Positions 31,108 to 47,066 of a stretch of 64,000 nucleotides of DNA are shown in pieces; within the stretch, counting starts at the first letter, position 1; each line of letters opens with the position of its first letter. The notes under the pieces were generated by a model. The model did no database searches, had not been told where the DNA came from, and saw only the letters and a program-made list of their open reading frames with translations. The position numbers and the translations under genes were made by a program. Source of the stretch: Marinobacter lutaoensis (GTDB lineage: Bacteria; Pseudomonadota; Gammaproteobacteria; Pseudomonadales; Oleiphilaceae); contig NZ_MSCW01000002.1 in the NCBI RefSeq assembly GCF_001981305.1, positions 62,001 through 126,000 on the forward strand, in the 5' to 3' direction.

Positions 31108-32325
31108 TCAGTTCGCCGCCAGCTCCGATTCCTGCCGCCGGAAGGCGGGAATCAGGGCGACGATCACCGCCACGAACGCCAGCACGAACACACCGGCCAG
31201 CAGGAAGGTGAGATTGAACGGCATCACCTCCGCCAGGAACCCCAAAATCAGCGGCGCCAGGAACTGGACTCCCCGGTTTCCCATCAGGCGCATGCCCAGG
31301 GCACTGGAGCGCTGGGCCGCCGACACATGCTCGGCCAACACCACCATCGACAGCGGCTGGGAGATCCCCGAACCGACCCCCACCAGAACCGCCAGCACCC
31401 CGAGCAGATAGACATTGCCGGTCAGCCCGGTCAGCATCAGCCCCAGGGCAACCACCACCGAGGACCACACCATCGCGGCGGCCCGGCCTCCCAGCCACTC
31501 GATCACCGACGACATGAACGGGCGGATGGCCATGGCACACAGTGCCCGGAGGCTGACCAGGGCACCGATGGTGGTGGCGGACACCGCCAGGCTTTCCAGA
31601 TAGACCGGCAGGAAACTGCCGTGGGCGCCCAGGGCAAACATCACCGCCACCGTCAGCGCGATGGAAATTTTCACCCCGGGATTGGTGCGCAGCAGCCGGG
31701 CCTGGGCCCGGTAGCCCAGCAGGGATTTCTCCGTACTCTGGCCGACGCGGGCGCTGCCCGTCAGGAAGAAGCCGCTCAGGATACCGATCAACGCGATCGC
31801 GCCCATGACCGCGAACGACAGCCGGGCACCGCTGGCGTCGATCAGCCAGCCGGCCAGCAAAGGCCCCACCAGCTGCCCGCCGGACAGGCAGGTGGTGTAC
31901 CAGCCGAAGTAGCGCTCCAGCGCCTTGCCGTGCCCCAGCCCGGAGATGATGGACTGGGCCGCCAGCACCATCAGGATGTGCGCCACCCCGATGATCAGCT
32001 GCGCCACGATCAGACCGGAGAAGCCGGGCAGCAGCAGAATCACCCAGGGCCCCGCCGCCATGCCGCAGGCGCCGGCAATGATGACCCGGCGACCGCCCAG
32101 GCGCGTGATCAACCCGCCCAGGGGAATCGCCAGCACCAGCGGCAGCAGATACGGGGCACAAAGGATCATACCGACCAGCACCGGCGTGGCCCCCAGCTCC
32201 AGGGCGTACAGGGGAATGGCGATCAGCAGCATGGTCTGCACCATGAAGGCGCTGGTCAGGCCCACGCAGATGGCGACCATGTTGGTCAGCACCTCGTTCG
32301 GCCCGGATGGATCCGGCTTCGACAT
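31108..32325 (-). CDS. MFS transporter
   Basis: This 405-residue major facilitator protein has about 12 hydrophobic helices and loops typical of the family (LGGLITRLGGRRVIIAG between helices 2 and 3; the GLGHGKALERYFGWYTT region). ATG at 32325 with GGGAGA upstream is chosen over a start 19 codons earlier. The stop is three bases from the LysR stop (convergent). The citryl-CoA lyase-like and CoA-transferase genes lie upstream on the same strand with a 22-base gap, so it may be the last gene of that operon and carry the organic-acid substrate. Confidence 0.87.
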   Translation of the reverse strand: MSKPDPSGPNEVLTNMVAICVGLTSAFMVQTMLLIAIPLYALELGATPVLVGMILCAPYLLPLVLAIPLGGLITRLGGRRVIIAGACGMAAGPWVILLLPGFSGLIVAQLIIGVAHILMVLAAQSIISGLGHGKALERYFGWYTTCLSGGQLVGPLLAGWLIDASGARLSFAVMGAIALIGILSGFFLTGSARVGQSTEKSLLGYRAQARLLRTNPGVKISIALTVAVMFALGAHGSFLPVYLESLAVSATTIGALVSLRALCAMAIRPFMSSVIEWLGGRAAAMVWSSVVVALGLMLTGLTGNVYLLGVLAVLVGVGSGISQPLSMVVLAEHVSAAQRSSALGMRLMGNRGVQFLAPLILGFLAEVMPFNLTFLLAGVFVLAFVAVIVALIPAFRRQESELAAN

Positions 32326-32347
32326 ACGTTCTCCCAGGCAGGAATAC

Positions 32348-33187
32348 TCAGACCGGCGGACAATCCCGGGGCGGCTCGCCATCGTATTGCCAGAGCCAAC
32401 CCTTGGGCAAGGGCCCCTTGTTGCGCCCCCCCTGCTGCTGTTGCTCCCAGGCGTGGGCCAGAATCCCCACGCTCCGGGACAGACAGAACAGGCCCCGGCC
32501 GAGGGGCGGCGGCAGCCCGAGTTCGGAAAAGATCACCGCAGTGGCGCCATCGATGTTCATGGGAATGCGGCGGCCCTTGGCCGCAGCCAACTGACGCTCG
32601 ATCTCCCCGGCGATGGCGGCGACCTGCCCGGTAATTTCACCGGTTTCCGCCACCTCGGCCACCAGGGCCATCAGCCGGGGTGCCCGGGGATCGGTCCGGT
32701 GAAAGCGGTGCCCGAAGCCCGGGATGATCGGTCCGTACCGCCGGCGCCAGTGGGCAAGGCCCGCCTCGGTCGCCCGCGCCAGGTCGTCACCGTCCACCAG
32801 CCGCGACCGAATGTCCTGAAACAGCATCATCGCCTGCTCGCCAGCGCCCCCGTGCACATCGTCCAGCACATTGACGGCGGAGGCCAGCGCGTTGTTGAGG
32901 GAGCCGCCGCAGGTCATGGCCATGCGGGCAATGGCGATGCTCGGTGCCTGCGGGCCGTGGTCGACGCCGGCGACCAGGGCCGCCTCGGCCAGCCGGGCCT
33001 GGCGGGGCGAGGGCATCACCCCGACCACCAGAAACCAGATCATGTCCACGAACGACACCCGGCCGATCAACTGTTGCACCGGGCAGCCCCGGAACCGGAT
33101 CCGGTCCGGCGCCATGTCGATGATCCCGGTGCGCCACCAGGCCGCGGCCTGATCCCGGTCCGGGGGGGTATCCGTCGGTCTGCTCAT
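32348..33187 (-). CDS. Citrate-synthase-fold lyase/synthase, citryl-CoA lyase-like
   Basis: This is a short (279-residue) member of the citrate synthase superfamily, of the kind annotated as citryl-CoA lyase. Catalytic elements line up with citrate synthase: His in VHGGAGEQA, His in PGFGHRFHRTDPRA and Asp in MNIDGATAVIF. The N-terminal domain of full citrate synthases (about 430 residues) is missing. Such enzymes make or break the C-C bond between acetyl-CoA and a 2-oxo acid. Its ATG overlaps the CoA-transferase stop (ATGA), so a CoA ester made by that transferase is the likely substrate. The true substrate is unknown; HMG-CoA or citramalyl/citryl-like esters are possible. Confidence 0.85.
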   Translation of the reverse strand: MSRPTDTPPDRDQAAAWWRTGIIDMAPDRIRFRGCPVQQLIGRVSFVDMIWFLVVGVMPSPRQARLAEAALVAGVDHGPQAPSIAIARMAMTCGGSLNNALASAVNVLDDVHGGAGEQAMMLFQDIRSRLVDGDDLARATEAGLAHWRRRYGPIIPGFGHRFHRTDPRAPRLMALVAEVAETGEITGQVAAIAGEIERQLAAAKGRRIPMNIDGATAVIFSELGLPPPLGRGLFCLSRSVGILAHAWEQQQQGGRNKGPLPKGWLWQYDGEPPRDCPPV

Positions 33188-34350
33188 GGGCGTGCCTCGA
33201 TCGGGTCCAGATTCGCCAGAACGGTGGCATTGTCCTGGCCCAGGGTCGGGGGCGGCGACGCCACCCGGGGCGGCCTGCCGTTGAAGCGGTAGCCGCCACT
33301 GATCACCTTCAGGGGCCGGCCGATCCCCCCGTCGTCGAAGGTCTCGATCAGGCCCCGGTCGGCCACCTGGGGGTGCGCCAGGATCTGCTCGATGGTGTAC
33401 ACCGGTCCCGCCGGCACACCTTGCGCCACCAGGGCCCGCCACCAGAACTCGGTATCCCGGATCGCCAGTCTCGCCTCGATCCGCTCGGTCAGCGCCTGAC
33501 GGTGTTCCAGTCGCGCCTGCCGGTCCGCGAAACGGGGATCGTCCAGCCACTCGGGACACCCCAGCACCCGGCACAGGGCCTCGAACTGTTCCTGTTTGTT
33601 GGCGGCGATGTTGATCAGGCCGTCACCGGTGCGGAAGGTCCCGGACGGACTGGCGGTGACGTTGTTGTTGCCGATCGGCGCGGGCGCCTTGCCGGCGACC
33701 AACAGGTTGGACACCGCCCAGCCCAGGGTGGCCAGCACCGACTCCAGCATGGATACGTCGATGAACGTGGCCGGCCGTTGCGGATTGGCCAGCGCCGCGC
33801 TGATCGCCATCGCGGCGGTCAGCCCGCCCACGGTATCGGCCAGGGGATAACCGACCCGGTAGGGTGCGGTGTCGGCATCGCCGGTCACGCTCATCACGCC
33901 GGCCATGCCCTGGATGATCTGGTCGTAGGCCGGATAGGACGCCAGCGGGCCGTCCTGGCCGAACCCGGAGATCGCGCAATAGACGAGCCGAGGGTTGACG
34001 TCCCGCAGCACCTCGAAGTCCAGGGACAGACGCGCCATCACCCCGGGCCGGAAGTTTTCCACCAGCACGTCGGCGTCGCGGACCAGGGCCAGAAAGCGGC
34101 GCCGGTCGTCGGCGTCCTTCAGGTTCAGGGTCACCGACTTCTTGCCGGCGTTCTGCGCCAGGAACGAGGCCCCCATCAGGGACGCATTCAGCTCCGGGTC
34201 GGCCCCGAGCTGACGGGCCAGGTCGCCACCTTGGGGATTTTCCACCTTGATCACGTCAGCGCCGAGGTGGGCGAGCTGGTGGCAGCAAAAGGGACCGGCG
34301 AGCACATTGGTGAGATCCAGCACGCGGTACCCGGAAAGTGGCGGGGTCAT
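33184..34350 (-). CDS. CaiB/BaiF class III CoA-transferase
   Basis: This 388-residue family III CoA-transferase moves CoA between carboxylic acids. The start (PLSGYRVLDLTNVLAGPFCCHQLAHLGADVIKVE), KSVTLNLK, VLVENFRPGVM and the ASYPAYDQIIQGMAG motif are typical, and the candidate catalytic Asp is in YPLADTVGG. The second of two tandem ATG codons (34350) has the better spacing from AGGAGG. It is the first gene of the operon and divergent from an IclR regulator, with a perfect inverted repeat in the gap. Donor and acceptor acids cannot be read from the sequence. Confidence 0.91.
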   Translation of the reverse strand: MTPPLSGYRVLDLTNVLAGPFCCHQLAHLGADVIKVENPQGGDLARQLGADPELNASLMGASFLAQNAGKKSVTLNLKDADDRRRFLALVRDADVLVENFRPGVMARLSLDFEVLRDVNPRLVYCAISGFGQDGPLASYPAYDQIIQGMAGVMSVTGDADTAPYRVGYPLADTVGGLTAAMAISAALANPQRPATFIDVSMLESVLATLGWAVSNLLVAGKAPAPIGNNNVTASPSGTFRTGDGLINIAANKQEQFEALCRVLGCPEWLDDPRFADRQARLEHRQALTERIEARLAIRDTEFWWRALVAQGVPAGPVYTIEQILAHPQVADRGLIETFDDGGIGRPLKVISGGYRFNGRPPRVASPPPTLGQDNATVLANLDPIEARP

Positions 34351-34370
34351 CATTCCTCCTGACAGAACGC

Positions 34371-34387
34371 ATTCTGCTAAACAGAAT
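34371..34387. promoter_or_regulatory. Perfect inverted repeat between CoA-transferase and IclR genes
   Basis: ATTCTG-CTAAA-CAGAAT (34371-34387) is a perfect 6-5-6 repeat, and a further CAGAA half-site lies at 34363-34367. It is the best candidate operator for the adjacent IclR regulator. Confidence 0.55.
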
Positions 34388-34462
34388 ACACGCACGAAAT
34401 CCACATTTGCAACGCCATCGGCCAACGTTAATATGGCGGGCCAGGCAACGAGGCAGGCACAC

Positions 34463-35104
34463 ATGGCAGACAACCGGGTCCAGTCCGTCGAGCGGGCACT
34501 GATGATCCTGAACACTTTCCGAACCGGCGAGGACGCCTGGACGCTGGCACAGCTGGCGGAGAAAACCGGGCTGTACAAGAGCACCATCCTGCGGATTCTG
34601 GGATCACTGGAACGGTTCGGCTACGTGATGCGCGGCGAGGACGGCCTGCACCGGCCCGGCCCGGCGCTGCTCCGTTTCGGCCGCGACAGCACCACCGCCG
34701 ACTACGATGCGGTGATCCGCCCCTACCTGAAACGCCTTCGCAACGAGACCGGAGAAACCGCCTCGTTCTACGTCCGGGACGGGGACGAGCGCGTCTGCCT
34801 GCTGCGCGAGATTGGCCACCACGAATTGCGGCACTACGTGGAGGAAGGCTCCCGGCTCGGGCTGGACCGGGGAGCGGCGGCCCGGGCACTGGTGCAGCCG
34901 CACCAGAACGACGGCGTCCACATCTCCCGGGGCGAACGCGTGCCCGGGGTCGCCGCCATCGCGGTCCCGGTGTTCGATAGCCAGGGCGGCCAGCTTGGCG
35001 CCATCACTCTGTCCGGCAGCACCGAGTCGATTCTCTCCAGCCGCCAAGACCGCTTCATCGAGCTGCTGCGGGAGGCGGCCCGGCAGATCCGAGCCCGGTT
35101 CTGA
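34463..35104 (+). CDS. IclR-family transcriptional regulator
   Basis: This 213-residue IclR regulator is shorter than the usual 250 or so. The winged helix is at residues about 5-65 (VQSVERALMILNTF... LYKSTILRILGSLERFGYV). The effector domain has TASFYVRDGDERVCL and a GVAAIAVPVFDSQGGQLGAITLSG core but lacks part of the middle segment (around RGAAARALV, directly followed by QPHQND). It is divergent from the CoA-transferase/lyase operon and upstream of the PaaG-like gene, and probably controls both. Confidence 0.88.
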   Translation: MADNRVQSVERALMILNTFRTGEDAWTLAQLAEKTGLYKSTILRILGSLERFGYVMRGEDGLHRPGPALLRFGRDSTTADYDAVIRPYLKRLRNETGETASFYVRDGDERVCLLREIGHHELRHYVEEGSRLGLDRGAAARALVQPHQNDGVHISRGERVPGVAAIAVPVFDSQGGQLGAITLSGSTESILSSRQDRFIELLREAARQIRARF

Positions 35105-35237
35105 GCGCCGGCATTCCCATTGCTCATAACCGCATGACCAGCGGGAAGTTGCCACCGCGCCCGCCATGCTTACCCTGAAGGGAGAGAACGGCCCGGGGCA
35201 CCCCGGCCGCCGCACGCACCCGCAGGGAGAGCCCGCC

Positions 35238-36029
35238 GTGACCTTCGATACCGTCAAGCTGCAACAGGAACAATCGCTGGCCATCCTGACCCTCAACCGG
35301 CCCGACCGCCTCAACAGCATCAACGCCACCATGCGCCAGGAACTGATGACCGTGCTGACCCGCCTGGCCGCGGACACCTCGGTGCGGGCCGTGCTGATCA
35401 CCGGGGCCGGCCGCGCTTTCTGCGCCGGCCAGGACCTGCACGAGCGCCGGCGCGCCCCGGGGGAACCCAGGGCCGACCTGGGCCAGTCCCTGCGCCAGGG
35501 CTACAACCCGATCGCCCGGGCCATCCGGAGCCTGGACAAGCCGGTGGTGTGCGCTGTCAACGGCGTCGCCGCCGGTGCCGGCGCCAACCTCGCCCTGGCC
35601 TGCGACCTGGTGGTCGCAAAGCGGTCTGCCCGGTTCATCCAGAGCTTCATCAACATTGGCCTCATCCCCGATTGCGGCGGCACCTGGAGCCTGGCTCGCA
35701 AGGTCGGCCACGCGCGCGCCACGGGGCTGGCCATGACCGGTACCCCCATCGGCGCGGAACAAGCGGTGGAGTGGGGACTGATCTGGCAGTGCTACCCGGA
35801 CGAGTCCTTCGGCCGGGATGCCCTGCAACTGGGGCTGGAGCTGGCCCGCAAACCCACCCGCGCCCTGGCCGCCATCAAGTCGGCCCTGGCCGGTGCCTAC
35901 CACAACACCTTCGACGAACAGCTGGCGCTGGAGGCCGAATACCAGCAACGCTGTGGCCAGTCGGACGATTATCAGGAAGGGCTGCAGGCCTTCTTCGACA
36001 AGCGTGCCCCGGCCTTCCGGGGCCGCTGA
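35238..36029 (+). CDS. Enoyl-CoA hydratase/isomerase, PaaG-like
   Basis: This 263-residue crotonase-fold enzyme is very close in pattern to E. coli PaaG, the ring-1,2-epoxyphenylacetyl-CoA isomerase. Shared stretches are TLNRPDRLNSINATM, LITGAGRAFCAGQDL, YNPIARAI, PVVCAVNGVAAGAGANLAL, LIPDCGGTWSL and the ending EGLQAFFDKRAPAF. No other paa genes are here, so it may act on another unsaturated acyl-CoA, for example one made by the nearby CoA-transferase. The start is GTG at 35238 with GGGAGA seven bases upstream. It is convergent with mvaA, 18 bases away. Confidence 0.88.
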   Translation: MTFDTVKLQQEQSLAILTLNRPDRLNSINATMRQELMTVLTRLAADTSVRAVLITGAGRAFCAGQDLHERRRAPGEPRADLGQSLRQGYNPIARAIRSLDKPVVCAVNGVAAGAGANLALACDLVVAKRSARFIQSFINIGLIPDCGGTWSLARKVGHARATGLAMTGTPIGAEQAVEWGLIWQCYPDESFGRDALQLGLELARKPTRALAAIKSALAGAYHNTFDEQLALEAEYQQRCGQSDDYQEGLQAFFDKRAPAFRGR

Positions 36030-36047: not shown

Positions 36048-37316
36048 TCAGCCGCGCAGGGACTTGAGCAGGCGTTCGGCGATGTCCACCCGCACCCTGC
36101 CCTGGGCCACCATCTCCCGGGCCACCTGATCGATCTCCTCACCCACCGCGCCGGCCATGACCGCGATGTTCTTGGCGTGCAGGGCCATATGCCCCTTCTG
36201 GATACCGGTGGTGGCCAGTGCCTTGAGCGCGGCGAAATTCTGCGCCAGGCCAACGGCAGCGATTGTCCGCGCCAGCCGGTCGGCGCTGCTCACCCCCAGG
36301 ATGTCCAGAGCGATGCGGGCGGTGGGATGGGAACGGGTGGCGCCGCCGATCAGGCCCACCGCCAGGGGCATTTCCAACGTGCCGGTCAGGTTGCCGTCGG
36401 CATCCATTTCCCACTGGGTCAGCGACCGGTACTGTCCGGAACGGGCGGCATAGGCGTGAGCGCCCGCTTCCACCGCCCGGGTATCGTTGCCGGTGGCCAG
36501 CACCACCGCGCTGACCCCGTTCATGATGCCCTTGTTGTGGGTCGCCGCGCGGTAGGGGTCCAGATCCGCGAACTCGAAGGCGGCCAGAATGCCGTCACGC
36601 ACCTCGGCACCGCCGATGTCGGCCAGGGCCCAGGTAGCCCGGGCCCGGGCCAACCGCCGGTCCGCCAGGTTGGAGAGGATGCGCAGATAGGGACGACCGC
36701 CGGTCCACTCGGCCAGGCACGGCGCCACCGCCTCGGCCATGGAATTGACCGCGTTGGCCCCCATGGCGTCGCGGGTGTCCACCACCAGGTGGACGATCAC
36801 CATCGGCCCGGAGCGCCCCGCCAGGACCCGGACCTCCAGGTCCCGGAAGCCGCCGCCATGCGCGCGCAACACCGGGTCGGTCTCGTCGCAGAGGGCCTCG
36901 ATCTCGGCCCGGTGCTCAAGAATCCGCAGGCGCGCAAACTCCGGATTGGACACGCCCACCAGCTGCACCTGGGCGATCATCAGCGAGCCGGACATGGCCG
37001 TGGTGAAGCCGCCGGTATTCCGGCACTGGCGGGCGGCGTTGCACACGGCGGCGACCACCGACGACTCTTCGGTCGCCATGGGCACCAGCACCTCCTGGCC
37101 ATCGACAATCAGGTTGGTGGCAATTCCCAGGGGCACGTTCAGGGTGCCGATGACGTTCTCAATCATGGCGTCGGCGGTGGCGGCGTCGAGGTTGCCGGTG
37201 TTGGCCAGGTGGGCGACGGCCTCCGGCCCAAGGCCGGCGATCTCCGCCACCTTGTGCAGGCGTTCAAGGGGCGTCAGCCGATGCAGGCCGGGAATGCGCG
37301 AGGTGGTCGTTGTCAT
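36048..37316 (-). CDS. mvaA: Degradative (class II) hydroxymethylglutaryl-CoA reductase
   Basis: This 422-residue enzyme matches class II HMG-CoA reductase of Pseudomonas mevalonii, which oxidises mevalonate to HMG-CoA during growth on mevalonate. Catalytic elements visible are Glu in MIENVIGTLNVPLGIATN, Lys in THNKGIMNG, Asp in TGNDTRAVEAGAHAY and His in KGHMALHAKNIAVMAG. Gammaproteobacteria make isoprenoids by the MEP route, so a biosynthetic role is unlikely. It is the last gene of a dctP-dctQ-dctM-mvaA operon, 21 bases after dctM, pointing to mevalonate as the imported substrate. A conventional HMG-CoA lyase gene is not in the window. Confidence 0.94.
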   Translation of the reverse strand: MTTTTSRIPGLHRLTPLERLHKVAEIAGLGPEAVAHLANTGNLDAATADAMIENVIGTLNVPLGIATNLIVDGQEVLVPMATEESSVVAAVCNAARQCRNTGGFTTAMSGSLMIAQVQLVGVSNPEFARLRILEHRAEIEALCDETDPVLRAHGGGFRDLEVRVLAGRSGPMVIVHLVVDTRDAMGANAVNSMAEAVAPCLAEWTGGRPYLRILSNLADRRLARARATWALADIGGAEVRDGILAAFEFADLDPYRAATHNKGIMNGVSAVVLATGNDTRAVEAGAHAYAARSGQYRSLTQWEMDADGNLTGTLEMPLAVGLIGGATRSHPTARIALDILGVSSADRLARTIAAVGLAQNFAALKALATTGIQKGHMALHAKNIAVMAGAVGEEIDQVAREMVAQGRVRVDIAERLLKSLRG

Positions 37317-37337
37317 GGTCGGTTATCTCCTATGCAT

Positions 37338-38660
37338 TCAGGGCTGGGACGGTTGCACGATCCGCTCGGGCAGCCAGGTCACCAGGTCGGGGAACAGGAC
37401 GAACAGGGCCAGGGCCAGCAGCTGCAGCACCAGGAACGGCACGATGGCCCGATACACCGTGTCCATGCCGATGCCGTCAGGCAGCACGCCCTTGATGTAG
37501 AACAGCGTGTAACCGAACGGCGGCGTGATGTACGCCATCTGGGCGGTGATCAGAAACAGCACGCCGAACCACAGGGGGTCGAAATGGAAGGCATGGATGA
37601 TTGGCAGGAACACGGGCACGCACAGCAGGATGATGCCGATCTCGTCCAGAAACAGGCCGAGAAACACCAGCACCAGCATCATCGCCAGCAGCACCAGCCA
37701 GCGGTTGACCTCCAGGTCCTGGATGAACTGCAGCAGCGAATCCGCGCCTCCGGTGCCGGTGAAAATCGAGACGAAAATCTTGGCGCCGATGGTGATCCAC
37801 ATGATCATGGTGGTCACCCGCAGGGTATCCATCGCCGCCGCCTTCAGGTTACCGACGGTCAGCTCGCGCTGGCAGGCGGCCGACACCAGCGCGCCGATCA
37901 CGCCCACCGCGGCCGCCTCGGTGGGGGTCGCAATACCGGCATAGATGCTGCCCAGGACCGCCAAAACGATCAGGCTGGGCAGGATCAGCGACGTCAGCGA
38001 CCCCAACCGTTCCCGCCAGCCGATCGCCCGCGCCTCCTGGCGAGGTGCCTTCTCCGGCTGCAGCATCACCCGGATCACGATGTAGGCCATGTAGAGGCCC
38101 GCCAGCACCAGGCCCGGCACGATGCCGGCGGCAAACATCTTGCCCACGGAGATCTGCGCGGTCGCCGCATAGACAATGGTGATGATGGAGGGCGGGATCA
38201 GGATGCCGAGGGTGCCCCCGGCACAGATGGTGCCCAGCGCCAGGCGCTGGTCGTAACCGCGCCGGAGCATGGACGGCAACGCCAGGATACCCATCGCCGC
38301 CACCGCCGCGCCGACAATCCCGGTCATCGCCGCCATGATGGTGCAAATCACCACCGTGCCCACCGCCAGCCCCCCGGGCAGGCGCCGAAACCACAGTTCC
38401 ATGGCCCGGTACAACGCTTCGATAATGCCGGAACGCTGGAGCACGCTGGCCATCAGCACGTACAGCGGAATCGCCAGCAGGATGTCGGAGGTCATGGCAT
38501 CGAAGGTTTGCAGCACCGTCAGCACCAGCGCGTCAGTGCCCCAGAGCAGCACCGTAAACACCACCGCCAGGGCGGACAGGACGAACGCCAGCGGCATGCC
38601 GCTCAACAGCAGCAGCAACAGCCCCGCGAACATCAGCACCAGAACCAGGGAAGAGTTCAT
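37338..38660 (-). CDS. TRAP transporter large permease, DctM type
   Basis: This 440-residue membrane protein of the TRAP DctM family has about 12-13 hydrophobic segments. Typical signatures are TVVICTIMAAMTGIVGAAVAAMG, the ICAGGTLGILIPPSI motif and the late VFLPIIHAFHFDPLWFG. It forms the ion-coupled channel with the small DctQ-type subunit, whose gene overlaps it by four bases. It belongs to the same operon as mvaA. Confidence 0.93.
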   Translation of the reverse strand: MNSSLVLVLMFAGLLLLLLSGMPLAFVLSALAVVFTVLLWGTDALVLTVLQTFDAMTSDILLAIPLYVLMASVLQRSGIIEALYRAMELWFRRLPGGLAVGTVVICTIMAAMTGIVGAAVAAMGILALPSMLRRGYDQRLALGTICAGGTLGILIPPSIITIVYAATAQISVGKMFAAGIVPGLVLAGLYMAYIVIRVMLQPEKAPRQEARAIGWRERLGSLTSLILPSLIVLAVLGSIYAGIATPTEAAAVGVIGALVSAACQRELTVGNLKAAAMDTLRVTTMIMWITIGAKIFVSIFTGTGGADSLLQFIQDLEVNRWLVLLAMMLVLVFLGLFLDEIGIILLCVPVFLPIIHAFHFDPLWFGVLFLITAQMAYITPPFGYTLFYIKGVLPDGIGMDTVYRAIVPFLVLQLLALALFVLFPDLVTWLPERIVQPSQP

Positions 38661-39169
38661 GCGGACCCCTCCCCGGCCAGGGCACGCCGCGCCGCCAGGA
38701 TGGCCTCCGCCACCGCCTGCAGCAACAGCAGCAGGAAGGCCACCGGGATCAGCGCCTTCACCGGCCAGATCGGCGGATTCCAGGCGGTGAAGGAGGTTTC
38801 ACCGCTGTCAAAAGCGTTCAGCGCCACCGGCAGGCTCTGAACGATGAACACCGCCGCCAGCAACGCGATCAGGACATGACACAGGCAATCCAGCCAGCCG
38901 GCGGCGCGGCGCGGCAGCCGGGCATGGAGAATGTCGACGTTGACATGGCCGGCGGTGTGCAGCAGATAGGGCCCGGCCAGCAGGAAATAGGGGCCGAACA
39001 GCAGCGTCGACAGCTCCATCGCCCAGACCGTCGGCGCGTCGAAGAAATAGCGGGCGACCACTTCGTAACCAATGACCGCCACCATGACAAACGCAAGCGC
39101 GGAGACCGCTCCGGCCAACCAGCGGTTGAACGCCGTGACCAGGCGGCAGTAGCCAAGCACAACAGGCAT
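38657..39169 (-). CDS. TRAP transporter small permease, DctQ type
   Basis: This 170-residue protein has four predicted transmembrane helices. The DctQ motif VIGYEVVARYFFDAPTVWAMELS is present, followed by GHVNVDILHARLPRR. It links the binding protein to the large permease. It overlaps the start of the DctM-type gene (ATGA). A hairpin separates it from the binding-protein gene upstream. Confidence 0.92.
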   Translation of the reverse strand: MPVVLGYCRLVTAFNRWLAGAVSALAFVMVAVIGYEVVARYFFDAPTVWAMELSTLLFGPYFLLAGPYLLHTAGHVNVDILHARLPRRAAGWLDCLCHVLIALLAAVFIVQSLPVALNAFDSGETSFTAWNPPIWPVKALIPVAFLLLLLQAVAEAILAARRALAGEGSA

Positions 39170-39187
39170 CGTGAACCTCGGGGATGG

Positions 39188-39212
39188 GGCCGCCCGGGAT
39201 CTCCGGGCGGCC
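39188..39212 (-). other. Intercistronic GC stem-loop between dctP- and dctQ-type genes
   Basis: GGCCGCCCGG (39188-39197) and CCGGGCGGCC (39203-39212) form a perfect 10-bp stem with a 5-base loop and no T tract. It probably protects the 3' end of the binding-protein part of the message. Confidence 0.65.
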
Positions 39213-39231
39213 GTGACCAGGGCAGACCGGC

Positions 39232-40290
39232 TCAGTCGAGCAGGCCCAGCTCTTTCATGAAGGCGATCTGGCTGTCCAACACCCGGTTGGCCAGCTCGTC
39301 GTCCCCGGCTGCCTTGCGCCAGGCCCCCATGGCGGTTGCCCGGCCCTCGGCGACCATGTCCGGATTCAGATGGATCACCTTCACGCCCTGGGCCTCGAAC
39401 TGTTTCAGGGCCACGGCATCCTGGGCCAGAATGTGCTGTCTCAGGGAGGCGGAAATCTCCCGGGCAGCCACTTCCAGGGCCGCCTTGTAGGAGGCGGGCA
39501 ACGAATCGTAGGCGGCACGGTTGGCCACGTAGCTGGTCGCGGTGGTGGGCTGATGGAAACCGGGGACCACCACATAGCCGGCCACTTCACCGAGCCCGGC
39601 CTCCAGGTTGGCCGTCAGGTCGCCGCGGTCGGCGAAGTCGATCACACCCTTTTCCAGGGCTTGATACACCTCGGCGGTCGGCAACCCCGTGGTGGCCACG
39701 CCGAACGCCGCCATGACGGTGCTGGCCAGCCCCACGAAACGCCCCTTCTTGCCTTTCAGGTCGGCGAGGGACCTGAGCGGGAACTTGGAATGGATCGGCT
39801 CCTGGCCGTACACCGTCGGCGCGATGTAGAACAGGCCCGCCTTGGCATAGGCCTCGCGGGCCATGTCCAGGCCGCCTTTCTCATAGAACCAAGCTTCGTA
39901 CTGGTCCGGTTCGGGGAAGCCAAAAGGCACGGTGCTGGTGAAGGCAAACGCCGGAATGGCGCCGGCCTCGTAGCCGTCGAAGGTTTTCATCATCTGAAAG
40001 GCGCCGGCCCGCACCGCCTCGAAGGCCTGCGCGGACGGGGCCAGCTGGCCACCGGCGAACAGGCGGATCTGGAACTTGCCGTTGGTCAGCTCCGCCACCC
40101 GCTGGACAAAGTGCTTTTCGTACTCGTAGGGCGTCGTTCCGGCATCCCACAGGGCCTGCATGCGCCAGTTCACGCTCGGCAGTTCTTCGGCCGGCGCCAG
40201 CGACGGCAGCACGGCGGTGGCGGCAAGGACAAGGGCGGAGACCAGCGACTTGAGCAATCCGGGACGTTTGTTGTTGGTTGGTTTATTCAT
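39232..40290 (-). CDS. TRAP transporter binding protein, DctP type (candidate mevalonate binder)
   Basis: This 352-residue periplasmic solute-binding protein has a signal peptide ending about ATAVLPSLAPAEE. DctP-family features are VNWRMQALWDAGTTPYEYEKHF, the FAGGQLAPSAQAFEAVRAGAF stretch and LKGKKGRFVG, where the carboxylate-binding Arg would lie. The ATG at 40290 follows AAGGGGA and is preferred to GTG at 40323. As the first gene of the operon ending in mvaA it is inferred, not shown, to bind mevalonate or a similar hydroxy acid. It is divergent from a MocR regulator. Confidence 0.9.
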   Translation of the reverse strand: MNKPTNNKRPGLLKSLVSALVLAATAVLPSLAPAEELPSVNWRMQALWDAGTTPYEYEKHFVQRVAELTNGKFQIRLFAGGQLAPSAQAFEAVRAGAFQMMKTFDGYEAGAIPAFAFTSTVPFGFPEPDQYEAWFYEKGGLDMAREAYAKAGLFYIAPTVYGQEPIHSKFPLRSLADLKGKKGRFVGLASTVMAAFGVATTGLPTAEVYQALEKGVIDFADRGDLTANLEAGLGEVAGYVVVPGFHQPTTATSYVANRAAYDSLPASYKAALEVAAREISASLRQHILAQDAVALKQFEAQGVKVIHLNPDMVAEGRATAMGAWRKAAGDDELANRVLDSQIAFMKELGLLD

Positions 40291-40435: not shown

Positions 40436-40489
40436 AGGTACAATTAGAACAATTGACCCACGTACTGTACCTGCCAACAAAGGGGTACA
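40436..40489. promoter_or_regulatory. Three GGTACA half-sites, candidate MocR operator
   Basis: AGGTACA (40436-40442), TGTACCT (40466-40472) and GGTACA (40484-40489) occur within 54 bases in the gap between the divergent dctP and MocR genes. The first two form an inverted repeat, and the first and third a direct repeat. MocR regulators commonly bind sets of direct and inverted half-sites. Confidence 0.55.
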
Positions 40490-40502
40490 CTTTGAGGACG
40501 CC

Positions 40503-41894
40503 ATGGCACAGAAACCCGCGCTGGCCCAGCAGATCGCCGACACCATCGCCGAACAGATCAAACAGGGGCAATGGGCTACCGGCGCCCGACTGCCCTCGAT
40601 CCGGGCCGCCGCCAGCAACTTCGGCGTGTCCAAAAACACCATCATCGATGCCTACGACCGCCTGATCGCCACCGGCTACATCCGCCCCCGCCACGGCTCC
40701 GGTTTTTACGTCGAGGCCGCCCGCCCCGCGCATCCGGACATCAAGCCCGAACACTTCACCGAGGCGGTGGATCTGATCTCCCTGCTCCGGGAACAGCTGC
40801 ACCAGCACTACGAGGTCCGCGCCGGCGACGGCCGCCTGCCCGCCAGCTGGATGGAAAACGCCGACATCCGCCGGCAGTTCAAGCGCATCGCCCCCACCCG
40901 GGAACCGGGCGGAGAGTTCGAGTATGGCAACCCTCAGGGCCTGCCCGGGCTGCGCGAGGACATCTCCCGCACCCTGATCGACCGGGCCATCAGCGCCAGC
41001 CCCGACCAAGTGCTGCTGACTTTCGGCGCCAACCACGCCCTCGACCTGATCGTCCGGCACTTTGTCGACGCCGGCGATCCGGTGCTGGTGGAAACCCCCG
41101 GCTACTACCCCATGTTCGGCAAACTGCGCCTGCAACGGGCCCGAACCATCGGCGTGCCCCGGGGCCCGGACGGCCTGGATCTGACCTGCCTGGAGCAGGC
41201 CATCCGCGAACACCGGCCCAGGCTGCTGTTCGTCCAGCCCATGGCCCACAACCCCACCGGCACCTCCATGTCGCTGCAAAACATGCATGCGGTGCTGCGC
41301 ATCGCCGAACAGCATGACCTGACGGTCATCGAGGACGACCCCTTCGGCGACATCCTGCCCCGGGCAACGCCGCATCTGGCCTCCCTGGACGCCCTCAACC
41401 GGGTGATTTACGTGGGTACCTTTTCCAAGACCCTCTCGGCGAGCCTCCGCTGCGGCTACATCGCCGCCAACCGGGCGCTGATCCGGTCGCTGACCGACAT
41501 CAAGATGCTGACGGTGGTGAACGGCTCCAGCGTGATCGAACGCATGGTCCATGAAATGATTGTCCGAGGCCGCTACCGGCGCCACATGGCGCGGCTTCGG
41601 GACCGGGTGGGCAAGGCCGGCGCCGAGGCCGTGGCGGCCCTGCGTGGCATCGGCCTGGAGAACATCCAGCCACCCACCGGTGGCTATTACATCTGGTGCC
41701 CGCTGCCCGGCGATGTCGACGGCCTGGCGCTGGCGCACCAGGCCTCGGCCCAGGGCATTTTCCTCGCTCCGGGGCACCTGTTCACCCTCGGCGATCGGGA
41801 CGCTGCCCCCGCCCTGCGCATCAACATCGCCCATGCCCGGCACCCGCGCCTGCTTCGGTTCCTCCAGGACGAAGTGATCCGCGCGCGGCGCTGA
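40503..41894 (+). CDS. MocR-family regulator (GntR helix-turn-helix fused to aminotransferase fold)
   Basis: This is a 463-residue MocR/PdxR-type protein. The N-terminal GntR winged helix is at residues about 4-72 (TIAEQIKQGQWATGARLPSIR... GVSKNTIIDAYDRL), and a fold-type I aminotransferase domain follows. PLP-site residues are present: HNPTG, EDDPFGD, the Lys in YVGTFSKTLSASLR and the Arg in LRINIAHA. These proteins usually regulate and do not transaminate. ATG at 40503 with GAGGA upstream is chosen over an earlier in-frame start. It is divergent from dctPQM-mvaA, its likely target, with three GGTACA half-sites between. Confidence 0.91.
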   Translation: MAQKPALAQQIADTIAEQIKQGQWATGARLPSIRAAASNFGVSKNTIIDAYDRLIATGYIRPRHGSGFYVEAARPAHPDIKPEHFTEAVDLISLLREQLHQHYEVRAGDGRLPASWMENADIRRQFKRIAPTREPGGEFEYGNPQGLPGLREDISRTLIDRAISASPDQVLLTFGANHALDLIVRHFVDAGDPVLVETPGYYPMFGKLRLQRARTIGVPRGPDGLDLTCLEQAIREHRPRLLFVQPMAHNPTGTSMSLQNMHAVLRIAEQHDLTVIEDDPFGDILPRATPHLASLDALNRVIYVGTFSKTLSASLRCGYIAANRALIRSLTDIKMLTVVNGSSVIERMVHEMIVRGRYRRHMARLRDRVGKAGAEAVAALRGIGLENIQPPTGGYYIWCPLPGDVDGLALAHQASAQGIFLAPGHLFTLGDRDAAPALRINIAHARHPRLLRFLQDEVIRARR

Positions 41895-41902
41895 GGCGCC
41901 CC

Positions 41903-42682
41903 TCAGCGGGTGGCCTGGCGAATCTGCTCCGCCACCGCCTGCAGCCGGGGCAGGTAGCTGTCCCGGACCGTGGCCATGTCCACCCGCACTGCGTTGGTGC
42001 TGATGTTGATGGCCCCCAGCAACTCGCCGGCACCGGAGAACACCGGCACCGCCACCGAACGCAGGCCCAGGTCCAGTTCCTGGTCGACGATGGCGTAGCC
42101 CGCCTCGCGCACGCTCAGCAGCTCGGCCCTCAGCGCCTCCCGGTCAACAATCGAGGCGGGCGTGTGCCGGTGCAGCTCGACCCGCGCCAGGAACGCCTCC
42201 AGTTCCGGGTCCGGCAGCTGCGCCAGCAGCACCCGCCCCATGGAGGTGTACGCGGCCGGCAGGCGCGTGCCCACCGCCAGGCTGATGGCCATCAGCCGGT
42301 GCCGGGCCGCGGAGCGGACCACGTACACCACGTCATCGCCGTCCAGCACCGCCAGCGAGGACGACTCGCCCAGCTCCGCGGTGATGCCCTCCAGATACTG
42401 CTGAATAACGGCCCGGTACTGGTTCGAGGATTGGTAGGCGTACCCCAGCCGCATCACCCGGGGTGTCAGCTCGAACTGGCGCCCGCTGCGCTTGACGAAA
42501 CCGAGGGCGTGCAGCGTCAGCAGGAAGCGGCGGGCCTTGGCCCGGTCCATGCCGGTCCGCGTCGCCACCTCACTCAGGGTCATGCGCGGGTGCTCGGCGT
42601 CGAACGCCTGCAGCACCTCCAGGCCGGAGGCCAGGGCGCCGACGTAGTCGCGGTCTCCGGGTTTGAGTTTCCGATCATCCAT
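41903..42682 (-). CDS. IclR-family regulator, PcaR/PcaU/PobR type
   Basis: This is a 259-residue IclR regulator. The winged-helix domain starts at about residue 14 (VGALASGLEVLQAFDAEHPRMTLSEVA... DRAKARRFLLTL), and the effector domain carries SSLAVLDGDDVVYVVR, LPAAYTSMGRVLLA and LRSVAVPVFSGAGELLGAINIST. The pattern is that of the PcaR/PcaU/PobR subgroup that controls beta-ketoadipate pathway genes. It is divergent from pcaIJF, and two 15-bp palindromes like known PcaR/PcaU sites lie in the gap. The ATG at 42682 is preferred over 42712 because it starts at the family N-terminus. The expected effector is beta-ketoadipate or a related acid. Confidence 0.9.
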   Translation of the reverse strand: MDDRKLKPGDRDYVGALASGLEVLQAFDAEHPRMTLSEVATRTGMDRAKARRFLLTLHALGFVKRSGRQFELTPRVMRLGYAYQSSNQYRAVIQQYLEGITAELGESSSLAVLDGDDVVYVVRSAARHRLMAISLAVGTRLPAAYTSMGRVLLAQLPDPELEAFLARVELHRHTPASIVDREALRAELLSVREAGYAIVDQELDLGLRSVAVPVFSGAGELLGAINISTNAVRVDMATVRDSYLPRLQAVAEQIRQATR

Positions 42683-42734
42683 TCCATGTTCTCCAACACC
42701 AGCCAGGGGCAAGGACGACGAATGGTACCAGCTC

Positions 42735-42749
42735 GTTCGCTATACGAAC
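42735..42749. promoter_or_regulatory. 15-bp palindromic IclR operator near the regulator start
   Basis: GTTCGCTATACGAAC is GTTCG-N5-CGAAC, matching the known PcaU/PcaR-type pattern GTTCG-N5-CG-AC. It is about 50 bases upstream of the regulator's own start, suggesting autoregulation. Confidence 0.7.
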
Positions 42750-42826
42750 ATCCGCCGGAGCTGGTGAAAATTTGTTCTTGACGATCCCCAAGCAAACGCG
42801 CCATCATGTTCGCATAAAAAACTTAT

Positions 42827-42841
42827 GTTCGTAATACGAAC
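42827..42841. promoter_or_regulatory. 15-bp palindromic IclR operator near the pcaI start
   Basis: GTTCGTAATACGAAC is a perfect 7-1-7 palindrome with the same GTTCG-N5-CGAAC form as 42735-42749. It ends 24 bases before the pcaI start. A partial third copy, GTTCGCAT, begins near 42808. Confidence 0.7.
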
Positions 42842-42865
42842 TTAAAGCAACAAGAGAACCGAGCA

Positions 42866-43693
42866 ATGGCTGAATTCCTCTCTCTCCAGAACGCGGTGGC
42901 CAAGCACATCCACGACGGGGATACCGTGGCGATGGAAGGCTTCACCCACCTGATCCCCTTCGCGGCGGGCCATGAAATCATCCGCCAGGAAAAGCGTGAC
43001 CTGACACTGATCCGGATGACCCCGGACCTGATCTACGACCAGATGATCGGCGCCGGCTGCGCCCGCAAACTGATTTTCTCCTGGGGCGGCAACCCCGGTG
43101 TCGGCTCCCTGCACCGCCTGCGCGACGCGGTGGAAAAGGGCTGGCCCAACCGGATCGAGGTGGTCGAGCACAGCCACGCCGCCATGGCCTGCGCCTACGA
43201 GGCCGGCGCCTCGGGGCTGCCCCTGGCGATTCTGCGCGGCTACATCGGCAGCGACCTGCCCAAGGTCAACGACCAGATCCGCTTCATCGAGTGCCCGTTC
43301 TCCGGCGAACGCCTGGCGGCGGTGCCGTCGGTGCGGCCGGATGTGACAGTGATCCACGCCCAGCGGGCGGACCGCCGGGGCAACGTGCTGGTGGAAGGCA
43401 TCGTTGGAGTGCAGAAGGAAGCCGTGCTGGCGGCCCGGCGCAGCATCGTCACCGTGGAGGAAATCGTCGACGACCTTGGTGCCTCGGTGAACGCCTGCGT
43501 GCTGCCGGCCTGGGCCATTACCGCCATTGCCCTGGCACCCGGCGGCGCCAAGCCGTCCTACGCGCTGGGCTACTACGACCGCGACAACGCCTTCTACAAG
43601 GCCTGGGATGCGATCGCCCGGGATCGCCAGGCGTTCCTGGCCTGGCTGAACGACAACGTGTTCACGACACGCGCCGACCAAGGAGCCGAGTAA
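42866..43693 (+). CDS. pcaI: 3-oxoadipate CoA-transferase subunit A (PcaI/CatI type)
   Basis: This is the 275-residue alpha subunit of a class I CoA-transferase. The sequence (MAEFLSLQNAVAKHIHDGDT, EGFTHLIPFAAGHEIIRQ, FSWGGNPGVGSLHRLRDAVE, LPAWAITAIALAPGGAKPSY) fits the CatI branch of 3-oxoadipate CoA-transferases and not the short PcaI of P. putida or AtoD. It forms a heterodimer with the next gene product and transfers CoA from succinyl-CoA to beta-ketoadipate. Activity toward other 3-oxo acids such as acetoacetate cannot be excluded. It is the first gene of the operon, 24 bases after an IclR-type palindrome. Confidence 0.88.
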   Translation: MAEFLSLQNAVAKHIHDGDTVAMEGFTHLIPFAAGHEIIRQEKRDLTLIRMTPDLIYDQMIGAGCARKLIFSWGGNPGVGSLHRLRDAVEKGWPNRIEVVEHSHAAMACAYEAGASGLPLAILRGYIGSDLPKVNDQIRFIECPFSGERLAAVPSVRPDVTVIHAQRADRRGNVLVEGIVGVQKEAVLAARRSIVTVEEIVDDLGASVNACVLPAWAITAIALAPGGAKPSYALGYYDRDNAFYKAWDAIARDRQAFLAWLNDNVFTTRADQGAE

Positions 43694-43695
43694 CC

Positions 43696-44472
43696 ATGAG
43701 CCTCGAATTTACCGCTTCGGAAATGATGAGCGTGACCGCCGCCCGAGCACTCCGCAACGACATGATCTGCTTCGTCGGCATCGGCCTGCCGAGCGAGGCC
43801 GCTAACCTGGCGCGGCTGACCCACGCCCCGGACGTGACGTTGATCTACGAATCCGGCACCCTGCAGACCCGCCCGGACGTCCTGCCCCTGTCCATCGGCG
43901 ACGGCGAGCTGTGCGAATCGGCGCTGACCACGGTGTCGGTGCCGGAGATGTTCCGCTACTGGCTCCAGGGCGGGCACGTCAGCGTCGGCTTCCTGGGCAC
44001 CGCCCAGATCGACCGTTACGCCAACCTGAACACCACCCTGATCGGCGACTACCGCTCACCCGCAGTGCGCCTGCCCGGCGGTGGCGGTGCCCCGGAGATC
44101 GCCACCCATGCCCGGGAAGTGTTCATCACCGTCAAGCACTCCCGGCGCACCTTCGTGAACGCGGTGGATTTCATCACCACCGTAGGCTTCGGCCGCGACG
44201 GCAAGGCCCGCGAGGGTGTGCCGAATATCGGCCGGGGGCCATCCCTGGTCATCACCGACCTGTGCATTCTCAAGCCGGACCCGGACACCCGGGAACTGGT
44301 GGTCACCTCCCTGCACCCGAACGTCACCCGCGAGGACGTGATTGAGGCCACCGGCTGGGACATCCGTTTCGCCACGCAGCTGGAGCGTACCCCCGCCCCC
44401 AGCGCCGAGGAACTTGAGGTGCTGCGCGATCTGAAAGCGCGCAGCGACGCCCACCACTCGAGCCAACCGTGA
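43696..44472 (+). CDS. pcaJ: 3-oxoadipate CoA-transferase subunit B (PcaJ/CatJ type)
   Basis: This is the 258-residue beta subunit. It includes the class I CoA-transferase catalytic Glu in LIYESGTL, the [18 protein letters not shown] stretch and the [14 protein letters not shown] motif, as in CatJ-type enzymes. ATG at 43696 has AAGGAG upstream, inside the end of pcaI, and the two genes are two bases apart. It works with the preceding subunit to make beta-ketoadipyl-CoA for the thiolase encoded next. Confidence 0.88.
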
Positions 44473-44482
44473 GGCTTGCCAT

Positions 44483-45685
44483 ATGACTGACGTATACATC
44501 TGCCATCCCCGACGCTCGGCCATCGGCCGCTTCGGCGGCACCCTGGCCAGCGTGCGCCCGGACGACCTGGCCGCCGACATTCTCAAGGCGGTACTGGCCG
44601 AGGCGCCAGACCTGGACCCCGCGGCCATCGACGAAGTGCTGTTGGGCTGCGCCAACCAGGCCGGCGAAGACAACCGCAACGTGGCCCGCATGGCGGCACT
44701 GCTGGCGGGCCTGCCAACGACGGTGCCGGGCGGCACCCTCAACCGTCTGTGCGGGTCCGGCATGGACGCGGTGGGTACCGCGTTCCGGGCGATTCGTGCC
44801 GGCGAGATCGAACTGGCCCTGGCCGGTGGCGTCGAGTCCATGTCCCGCGCCCCCTACGTCATGGGCAAGGCCGACACCCCGTTCGCCCGGAACCAGCAGA
44901 TCGAGGACACCACCATCGGCTGGCGTTTCGTCAACCCCTTGATGAAAGCGCGCTACGGCATTGACTCCATGCCGGAAACCGCCGAAAACGTCGCCGAGCA
45001 ATACAAGGTGTCGCGGCAGGATCAGGACCTGTTCGCCTTCCGGTCCCAGCAGAAGGCGGCCCGGGCCCGGGACAACGGCATCTTCGCCGAGGAAATCACG
45101 CCGGTGACCATTCCCCGCCGGAAACAGGAGCCGCGGGTGTTCGACACCGACGAGCATCCCCGCAGCACCACCCTGGAAAAGCTGGCGGCGCTGCCGACAC
45201 CGTTCCGGGAAGGTGGTTCGGTCACCGCCGGCAACGCGTCCGGCGTCAACGACGGGGCCGCGGCCATGCTGGTGGCCAGTGCCCAAGCGGTACAACGTCA
45301 CGGCCTGCGGCCCATCGCCCGCGTCGTCGGCATGGCCACCGCCGGGGTCGAACCCCGCATCATGGGCATCGGGCCGGTGCCGGCCACCCGCACTCTGCTG
45401 GCGCGCCTGGGGCTGTCGCTGGATCAGGTCGACGTGATCGAACTGAACGAGGCGTTCGCGGCCCAGAGCCTGGCGGTGATGCGAGAACTGGGGCTGGCGG
45501 ACGATGACCCCCGGGTCAACCCCAACGGCGGCGCCATCGCCCTGGGTCACCCGCTCGGCATGTCCGGCGCCCGGCTGGTGATGACCGCGGCGCACCAGCT
45601 GCAGCGCACTGGCGGCCGCTACGCCCTGTGCACCATGTGCATCGGCGTCGGCCAGGGCATCGCCCTGCTGATTGAACGCACGTGA
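44483..45685 (+). CDS. pcaF: Beta-ketoadipyl-CoA thiolase
   Basis: This 400-residue thiolase cleaves beta-ketoadipyl-CoA to succinyl-CoA and acetyl-CoA. It follows P. putida PcaF closely: [36 protein letters not shown], catalytic Cys in [39 protein letters not shown], the His in [18 protein letters not shown] and the second Cys in TMCIGVGQG. The EDTTIGWRF signature separates it from acetoacetyl-CoA thiolases. It is ten bases after pcaJ in the same operon. Confidence 0.95.
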
Positions 45686-45749
45686 CAACCGGTCACAACC
45701 ACAACAACCAAAACGTCCATCGATATCCAAAAACAACGGTCACAAAACA

Positions 45750-47066
45750 ATGGAAGCAATCACCAACCTTTCCGTTCGCATGGTTCAGCGCTACCTGCCC
45801 AGCGCTTTTGTCCTCGCGGTGATCCTCACCGCCATCGTGTTCGTGCTCGGCATGACGGTCTCCGGCCAGTCGCCCGTGGCGATGGCCGGATACTGGGGTG
45901 ACGGATTCTCGAAACTGTTCAAATTCGGCATGCAGATGGTGCTGGTGCTCCTGACCGGCTACGTGCTCGCCCTCACGCCGGCGGTGCAGTCGATGCTCAC
46001 CGGCCTGACCCGGCACACCAGCACGCCCCGCCAGGCCCTGGTCCTGACCATTGTGGTCAGCTTCGTCTGCTACTACCTGAACTGGGGCTTTGGCATGGTC
46101 GCCGGCGCCATCCTGGCCCGGGAAATGGGCCGGCGGGTCGCCGTGCATTTCCCGCTGATCGTTGCCGCGGCCTATGGCGGCGAGCTGGTGCGGGGGCCCT
46201 CCTCCTCCATTCCCCTGGTGATCGCCACCCCCGACCATTTCATGGAGGACGCCATCGGTATCGTGCCGGTCAGCGAAACCCTCTACTCCGGCTGGAACAT
46301 CGCCCTGACCATCACACTGCTGGTGCTGCTGGTGATCTTCTTCCTGCTGCAAAAGCAGCCCGAGCGCATCGTCCGCCTGGACGACAGCGGCGATGATCGG
46401 CCGGACACCCAGGCCGATGCAACCGCCGGACACAGCCCAGCCGAGCGCATCGAGAACAGCCGCTGGCCCACCCTGTTCCTGGGCCTGCTGGCCGCCGCCT
46501 ATCTGATCGCTCAGGTGGTCAACCAGGGCTTCAGCATCAACCTCAACACCATCATCCTGATCTTCCTGGCGCTGGGCCTGATTCTGCACCGGAATTCCGT
46601 CGCTTACCTGAAGGCCACGGAAAAGGCGGTGACGGCGGCCCGGGGCATCATCGTGCAGTTCCCGCTCTACGCCGGCATCGCCGGAATGATGACCAACTCG
46701 GGGCTGGTGACCCAGTTCTCCGAAGCGATCATTGCCATCGCGACGCCGGGAAGCTTTCCTCTGCTGACGTTCCTCTCCGCCGGCCTGGTCAACTTCTTCA
46801 TCCCCTCCGGGGGCGGTCAGTGGGCGATTCAGGGGCCGATCATGATGGAAGCCGCAGCGGCCCTGGGGGCCGACCCCGCCCAGACCATCATGGCCTTCAC
46901 CTGGGGCGATGGCTGGACCAACCAGATCCAGCCGTTCTGGGCCCTGCCCCTGCTCGGGGTGGCCGGGCTGTCGGCTCGGGACATCATGGGCTACCTGCTG
47001 GTGTGGCTGCTGATTTCCGGTGCCGCCATCGCCGGCACTTTCATGCTGCTCGCCGCCTTCGGCTGA
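45750..47066 (+). CDS. AtoE-family short-chain fatty acid/keto acid transporter
   Basis: This 438-residue membrane protein of the AtoE/TIGR00366 family has about 11-12 helices. Recognisable segments are LSVRMVQRYLPSAFVLAVILT, NWGFGMVAGAILAREMGRR, VNFFIPSGGGQWAIQGPI and WGDGWTNQIQPFWALPLLG. Relatives take up short-chain fatty acids with acetoacetate-type metabolism. Placed after pcaIJF it may import beta-ketoadipate or another oxo acid. The start at 45750 is the family start but lacks a clear ribosome site. The 64 bases before it contain no terminator. Confidence 0.9.
   Translation: MEAITNLSVRMVQRYLPSAFVLAVILTAIVFVLGMTVSGQSPVAMAGYWGDGFSKLFKFGMQMVLVLLTGYVLALTPAVQSMLTGLTRHTSTPRQALVLTIVVSFVCYYLNWGFGMVAGAILAREMGRRVAVHFPLIVAAAYGGELVRGPSSSIPLVIATPDHFMEDAIGIVPVSETLYSGWNIALTITLLVLLVIFFLLQKQPERIVRLDDSGDDRPDTQADATAGHSPAERIENSRWPTLFLGLLAAAYLIAQVVNQGFSINLNTIILIFLALGLILHRNSVAYLKATEKAVTAARGIIVQFPLYAGIAGMMTNSGLVTQFSEAIIAIATPGSFPLLTFLSAGLVNFFIPSGGGQWAIQGPIMMEAAAALGADPAQTIMAFTWGDGWTNQIQPFWALPLLGVAGLSARDIMGYLLVWLLISGAAIAGTFMLLAAFG

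Follow-up and report, generated by a model that had tools for sequence, protein, structure and literature searches.

A TRAP importer operon ending in a degradative HMG-CoA reductase in Marinobacter lutaoensis, a candidate system for mevalonate uptake and catabolism

Why should a bacterium that appears to make its isoprenoids by the methylerythritol phosphate (MEP) route keep a 3-hydroxy-3-methylglutaryl-coenzyme A (HMG-CoA) reductase (HMGR) directly behind the genes of a tripartite ATP-independent periplasmic (TRAP) importer? This question is raised by a 64,000-nucleotide stretch of the Marinobacter lutaoensis genome (assembly GCF_001981305.1, contig NZ_MSCW01000002.1, positions 62,001 to 126,000; hereafter the window), in which dctP, dctQ, dctM and mvaA form a head-to-tail run on the minus strand at 36048-40290. 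The mvaAB genes of Pseudomonas mevalonii are a known mevalonate catabolism system, and structures of its HMGR have been solved (1qax, 4i4b). From the comparisons given below we consider it likely that the M. lutaoensis genes form a regulated mevalonate-utilisation operon whose TRAP transporter imports mevalonate.

The original prediction, made from the same DNA, described these four genes as an operon with gaps or overlaps of about 20 bases or less in its last three genes. Reading of the open reading frames in the window confirmed four minus-strand frames, each in its expected Pfam family and above its Pfam cut-off, with 62 bp between dctP and dctQ, a 4-bp overlap of dctQ and dctM, and 21 bp between dctM and mvaA. 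The gene for the periplasmic solute-binding protein, dctP (39232..40290, 352 aa; PF03480 151.6 bits), encodes the predicted mevalonate receptor. It is followed by dctQ (38657..39169, 170 aa), the small membrane subunit, with 97.6 bits to PF04290 (cut-off 28.3) and no match in NCBIfam, by dctM (37338..38660, 440 aa), the large membrane subunit, with 331.7 bits to TIGR00786 (cut-off 268.45) and 287.3 bits to PF06808, and by mvaA (36048..37316, 422 aa). The TRAP subunit set is thus complete, as in known DctPQM-type transporters, from which this one would differ in its predicted ligand. A gene for a MocR/GabR-type regulator (40503..41894, plus strand; PF00392 57.5 bits, PF00155 116.8 bits) starts 212 bp upstream of dctP in the divergent orientation and is the predicted controller of the operon.

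The HMGR was claimed to be of the class II, mevalonate-oxidising type, and the family models bear this out. It scored 451.8 bits against the NCBIfam "degradative" model TIGR00532 (cut-off 259.95) versus 70.9 bits against the NADPH model TIGR00533 (cut-off 441.8), and 370.1 bits against PF00368 (HMG-CoA_red). Its best solved relative is 1qax (E 1.6e-136), the P. mevalonii HMGR, and window residues E84, D147, K262, D278 and H376 align with E83, D146, K267, D283 and H381 of the P. mevalonii enzyme. Among these the Glu, Lys, second Asp and His are catalytic, and D147 is the cofactor aspartate. The four catalytic residues are kept in 98 of 98 HMGR loci and the cofactor aspartate in 96, including all 41 loci that also have a MocR gene. 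PMC12292504 gives P. mevalonii as the species of 4I4B, which belongs to the same chain set as 1qax, and ties that aspartate to the use of NAD. By model scores and aligned residues we assign the window HMGR to the degradative, NAD-type class II family.

The chemistry encoded elsewhere in the host genome (3.83 Mb in 25 contigs, with a completeness of 99.93) agrees with a bacterium on the MEP route that has no other clear need for HMGR, as originally suggested. The MEP gene dxr is present (510.8 bits), HMG-CoA synthase gave no match in the genome at E 0.001, and there is one HMGR. A single HMG-CoA lyase exceeds its cut-off (472.5 bits versus 246; G000:C22:39018-39908); it lies beside a biotin carboxylase gene and, as read by eye, acyl-CoA dehydrogenase and carboxylase genes, in what looks like a leucine/isovalerate degradation cluster. 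Taken together, dxr, the missing synthase match, the single HMGR and the strong lyase leave the oxidative direction with an exit and the biosynthetic direction with no entry, and we infer that flux through the window HMGR runs from mevalonate to HMG-CoA. A lyase gene adjoining the HMGR, as in operons of the mvaAB kind, is found in 3 of 15 operons of the family and is absent from this position in the host.

We then asked how firmly the binding protein is tied to HMGR in samples of 151 genomes of the family, 369 of the class and 398 of the phylum. The family sample contains 16 stand-alone HMGRs and 16 orthologs of the binding protein, and 15 genomes hold both. These orthologs match at E 5e-189 or better with the next matches at 2.5e-65 and weaker, and over all three samples orthologs match at 1e-187 or better with a drop to about 1e-65 at the next-best match. 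In every one of the 15 paired genomes the binding protein and HMGR share a contig, lie 1909-1946 bp apart and stand in the order MocR-P-Q-M-HMGR, so the arrangement goes beyond chance. Pairing with HMGR is seen for 15/16 family, 2/2 class and 2/2 phylum orthologs, which places DctP in a narrow clade tied to HMGR. The operon is patchy, being present in 15 of the 151 genomes of its own family. The two unpaired family cases look like operon remnants: G443 has dctP alone, while in G514 dctM is shortened and the HMGR frame contains an in-frame stop. Both remnants adjoin one and the same gene pair, made up of an ORF of about 158 codons together with a gene read as sulfide:quinone reductase. G514 is also one of four genomes of the same genus (with G502, G506 and G509) having HMGR matches in frames of about 762 aa, which are likely of a fused type and were set apart as such.

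Beyond the family, this TRAP clade is also linked to HMGR in alpha-, beta- and gammaproteobacteria and in one metagenome-assembled genome titled Deltaproteobacteria. The order is kept from alpha- to gammaproteobacteria and in all paired family genomes. Wide conservation of mvaA apart from the TRAP genes, which had been named as evidence against an uptake role, is literally what we found in 25 of 27 class genomes with an HMGR above cut-off and in 13 of 15 phylum ones (in the class sample, neighbours were read for a minority of these HMGRs). Yet this result does not cut against uptake, because all 14 phylum clusters that were fetched (G879, with a 757-aa frame, was left out) carry a transporter beside HMGR. 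By tblastn 11 of them have TctA (6), a LIV-type binding protein (3) or the window-type TRAP (2), and Pfam matches assign to the remaining three a different DctP, a sugar-type ATP-binding cassette (ABC) set and a LIV-type ABC set.

This pattern of a constant core with changing transporters is repeated in a set of HMGR loci comprising the best 80 of 581 relatives, taken from named genomes. A MocR gene lies within 5 kb of HMGR in 25 of the 80 loci and in 13 of the 14 phylum clusters, and an HMG-CoA lyase does so in 14 of the 80 and 6 of the 14. Among loci having both the TRAP clade and HMGR, the lyase is within 5 kb in 3 of 20 (L018, L022, L166), and likewise in L183, L186 and L190. The transporters of the 25 MocR-HMGR loci are the window-type TRAP (12), a LIV-type binding protein (5), a Bug-type receptor (4), TctA (2) and major facilitator superfamily (MFS) proteins (2); over all 80 loci the counts are 15 window-type TRAP, 3 other TRAP, 7 TctA, 6 LIV, 4 Bug, 2 MFS and 43 with none. 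In related clusters, then, MocR and HMGR are constant, often with HMG-CoA lyase, and the transporter varies. Each of the 25 MocR-HMGR loci has a transporter match within 5 kb (221 kb scanned), versus 3 of 25 beyond that distance (201 kb). We rate the swapping of transporters beside a constant HMGR as the best evidence, though not proof, that the transported compound is the HMGR substrate. In two loci of Salipiger and Rhodovulum (L037, L042) another TRAP lineage is collinear with genes for HMGR and a short-chain dehydrogenase, and five Rhodobacteraceae loci (L046, L050, L073, L076, L085) have a class II HMGR, no transporter or MocR match, and two large shared upstream genes.

The regulator supplies a further common element. 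It has an N-terminal GntR domain and a C-terminal aminotransferase-like domain with the pyridoxal phosphate (PLP)-type lysine, which is kept in 53 of 53 loci, and it scored 267.8 against the PdxR model NF052282, below the cut-off of 320. Of the 37 gaps that separate MocR from its divergent operon, 33 contain the word AACTGTACC with at most one mismatch, at 69 sites versus a mean of 1.7 in shuffles. These counts carry the caveats that one set of gaps served both to discover the word and to count it, that the shuffles were mononucleotide and that the loci are related. Its density is 7.3 sites per kb in the gaps versus 0.21 per kb over whole loci. Three sites spaced by 20-21 and 25-26 bp stand together in 16 of the 37 gaps and in none of 500 shuffles; this triple is distributed as 12/15 dctP-first, 3/3 TctA-type, 1/18 HMGR-first and 0/1 other gaps; the 25-26 bp pair occurs in 24 of the 37, and many HMGR-first gaps have single sites. 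The same predicted three-site operator array thus precedes the TRAP and TctA versions alike. The window has 12 sites with at most one mismatch, three of them in the MocR-dctP gap (40437..40445, minus strand; 40463..40471, plus strand; 40484..40492, minus strand), each with one mismatch and in the spacing common to relatives. The window regulator shares its two-domain build with the regulators of known MocR regulons (TauR, GabR, EutR/EnuR, PdxR), and its predicted target genes differ from theirs. The MocR regulons covered in PMC5320631 include those for gamma-aminobutyric acid, taurine and ectoine, and a word search of the main text of that survey gave no occurrence of "mevalon", "HMG" or "CTGTACC".

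We compared DctP with solved structures. The predicted model (mean pLDDT, the predicted local distance difference test score, 82.8) is closest to TTHA0766 with lactate, at about 37% identity over the domain, with receptors of the keto-acid type and related TRAP receptors next, so that the closest solved relatives carry lactate, itself a small hydroxy acid, pyruvate or keto acids. The fold is shared with the calcium-lactate protein TTHA0766 and with TakP and other keto-acid binding proteins. The difference lies at residues 220-225, where the motif A-D-R-G-D-L is invariant in the clade (24 of 24 aligned sequences), as against ADFVGP in TTHA0766 and AEWIGP in 4yzz, with the alignment differing at 221-224. 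Because the E-W pair of AEWIGP is part of the metal and ligand site, R222 may change ligand contacts, and our guess is that the added arginine could hold a larger hydroxy acid. The predicted ligand is mevalonate or mevalonolactone, between which the sequence does not discriminate. The original remark that such a ligand was not known to be established for a TRAP binding protein agrees with our literature search, which covered few subscription papers and returned no TRAP transporter named as importing mevalonate and none with mevalonate assigned as its ligand. PMC6018831 and PMC10403917 mention TRAP and mevalonate separately.

Relatives add a possible outer step. A gene of the SMP-30/gluconolactonase family (PF08450) directly follows HMGR in four clusters (L183, L186, L170, L033), which suggests mevalonolactone as the outer substrate, and the N-terminus of the L183 protein resembles a signal peptide by eye. 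Inside another HMGR cluster a 705-aa frame (L178:14016-16130) joins an ABC permease domain to strictosidine-synthase/SMP-30 domains. The fullest version is L183, where a single stretch holds an scoAB-type CoA-transferase pair, HMG-CoA lyase, the SMP-30-like gene, HMGR, dctMQP and MocR, and also a short-chain fatty acid transporter. We read the order of events in relatives as lactone opening outside the cell, import, oxidation, cleavage and acetoacetate activation. In the host genome a search with the L183 lactonase, run without a positive control, gave no match.

On the proposed mechanism, an SMP-30-like lactonase would, in some relatives, open mevalonolactone before periplasmic DctP catches mevalonate and DctQ-DctM drive it inward by an ion gradient. 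HMGR would use NAD and CoA to oxidise it to HMG-CoA, from which the lyase of the leucine-degradation-like cluster would release acetyl-CoA and acetoacetate. The breakdown would be completed by a CoA-transferase and a thiolase, and the divergent MocR would switch the operon through its three AACTGTACC-type sites. As in P. mevalonii, a degradative NAD-type class II HMGR would feed an HMG-CoA lyase. The differences from mvaAB are that here HMGR is combined in one operon with genes for a TRAP importer and a MocR-type regulator (the P. mevalonii regulator is MvaR), and that the lyase is elsewhere in the host genome and adjacent in some relatives. Degradation of the P. mevalonii type and TRAP transport are both already known, and natural mevalonate transporters hardly so.

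Other readings of the locus have to be weighed. The TRAP might take up some other small acid of the hydroxy or keto type, such as 3-hydroxy-3-methylglutarate (HMG), a lactate-like acid or branched keto acids, with HMGR as a neighbour or a handler of side products. The ligands of the solved DctP relatives would fit this, and a free acid could be activated by the product of a family III CoA-transferase gene nearby (33184-34353) or by those of the CaiB-type genes in 4 of the 80 loci and 5 of the 14 phylum clusters. However, the use of HMG would call for a CoA-transferase plus a lyase and no reductase, yet HMGR is constant in the 80 loci (by construction of the set); the binding protein is missing wherever HMGR is missing, except in G443; and lactonase-like genes suit HMG less well than mevalonate, a compound that does form a lactone. 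We therefore regard this reading as unlikely. A TRAP system whose substrate is unrelated might also have come to lie here by accidental co-inheritance, TRAP genes being common (26 first-look DctP candidates in the host). This is made very improbable by a gene order unchanged from alpha- to gammaproteobacteria, by other transporters occupying the same place under the same operator, and by the correlation of HMGR distances with DctP distances (r 0.65) and DctM distances (r 0.70) over 20 loci, computed without species-tree control. Least credible is a salvage role, in which HMGR runs biosynthetically and the cell takes up mevalonate or a precursor to make isoprenoids from it. Class II HMGRs are reversible, and PMC12292504 reports assays of the R. 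pomeroyi enzyme in both directions. Against salvage stand the presence of dxr without a match to HMG-CoA synthase, the HMG-CoA lyase that joins the cluster in relatives, and the expectation that mevalonate, once imported, would be a substrate for mevalonate kinase and have no need of HMGR.

Import of mevalonate or a close hydroxy acid, the ligand originally proposed, is favoured by the pairing of DctP with HMGR, the MEP-route host and the lyase near HMGR in relatives. Several observations nevertheless weigh against it. No HMG-CoA lyase lies within the window. The 43 loci without a transporter match to the queries used are, by title, in many cases archaeal and in some from Rhodobacteraceae, and their HMGRs may serve other ends. 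The near and far counts of transporter matches at MocR-HMGR loci are biased by the choice of queries from genes near HMGR; transporters are moreover common genes, which weakens the swap argument, and many of the loci are related by descent. The sensor domains of MocR proteins usually read amino compounds, and mevalonate has no amine. On the placing of a PLP-fold sensor over a pathway with an amine-less substrate, one guess for the sensed ligand is an aldehyde such as mevaldate.

The operon is flanked by units of other apparent function. Beside mvaA, the unit at 31108-36029 comprises an MFS transporter, a citrate-synthase-like citryl-CoA lyase (NF004864, 427.8 bits), a CaiB-type CoA-transferase, an IclR regulator and a PaaG-like hydratase; we rejected it as a part of the pathway, as a citryl-CoA lyase beside HMGR was not repeated among the clusters, save for a 25% match in L083. 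On the other side, 41903-47066 holds genes for a PcaR-type IclR, catI, catJ, pcaF and a short-chain fatty acid transporter (SCFA_trans). This cluster (42866-47066) was also considered as an acetoacetate branch and set aside, a beta-ketoadipate role being simpler. PcaF (TIGR02430) and PcaR (TIGR02431) are above cut-off, the one intradiol dioxygenase of the host genome lies in surroundings read by eye as ben/cat genes, and no match to catIJ or pcaF was found in the 19 kb around it, so the unit probably forms the end of the beta-ketoadipate pathway, with the upper genes on another contig. It may also act on acetoacetate: catIJ-pcaF flank MocR-TRAP-HMGR in L020, and scoAB-like genes adjoin HMGR-MocR in L032, L036 and L183. 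Near the window end, a second TRAP binding protein (61721-62749; PF03480 199.3 bits) is followed by a DctQ-like frame.

If the assignment is correct, the window TRAP would count as one of the first naturally occurring importers of mevalonate to be assigned to genes. Mevalonate, which engineered microbes produce at scale, serves as the entry metabolite to one of the isoprenoid routes, and a natural high-affinity TRAP binding protein would offer biotechnology an importer and a sensor scaffold as well as a new TRAP ligand. The operon could serve as a gene marker for mevalonate-eating bacteria in nature, and the design of a variable transporter with a constant enzyme would yield several independent candidate mevalonate importers. 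The transporter kinds counted are several TRAP lineages, TctA, LIV-type ABC, sugar-type ABC, Bug receptors and MFS. It is fairly likely, on this evidence, that mevalonate is a widespread and patchily inherited bacterial food, taken up through one MocR-HMGR module with one three-site operator that would have recruited at least six interchangeable kinds of transporter, some with an outside lactonase.

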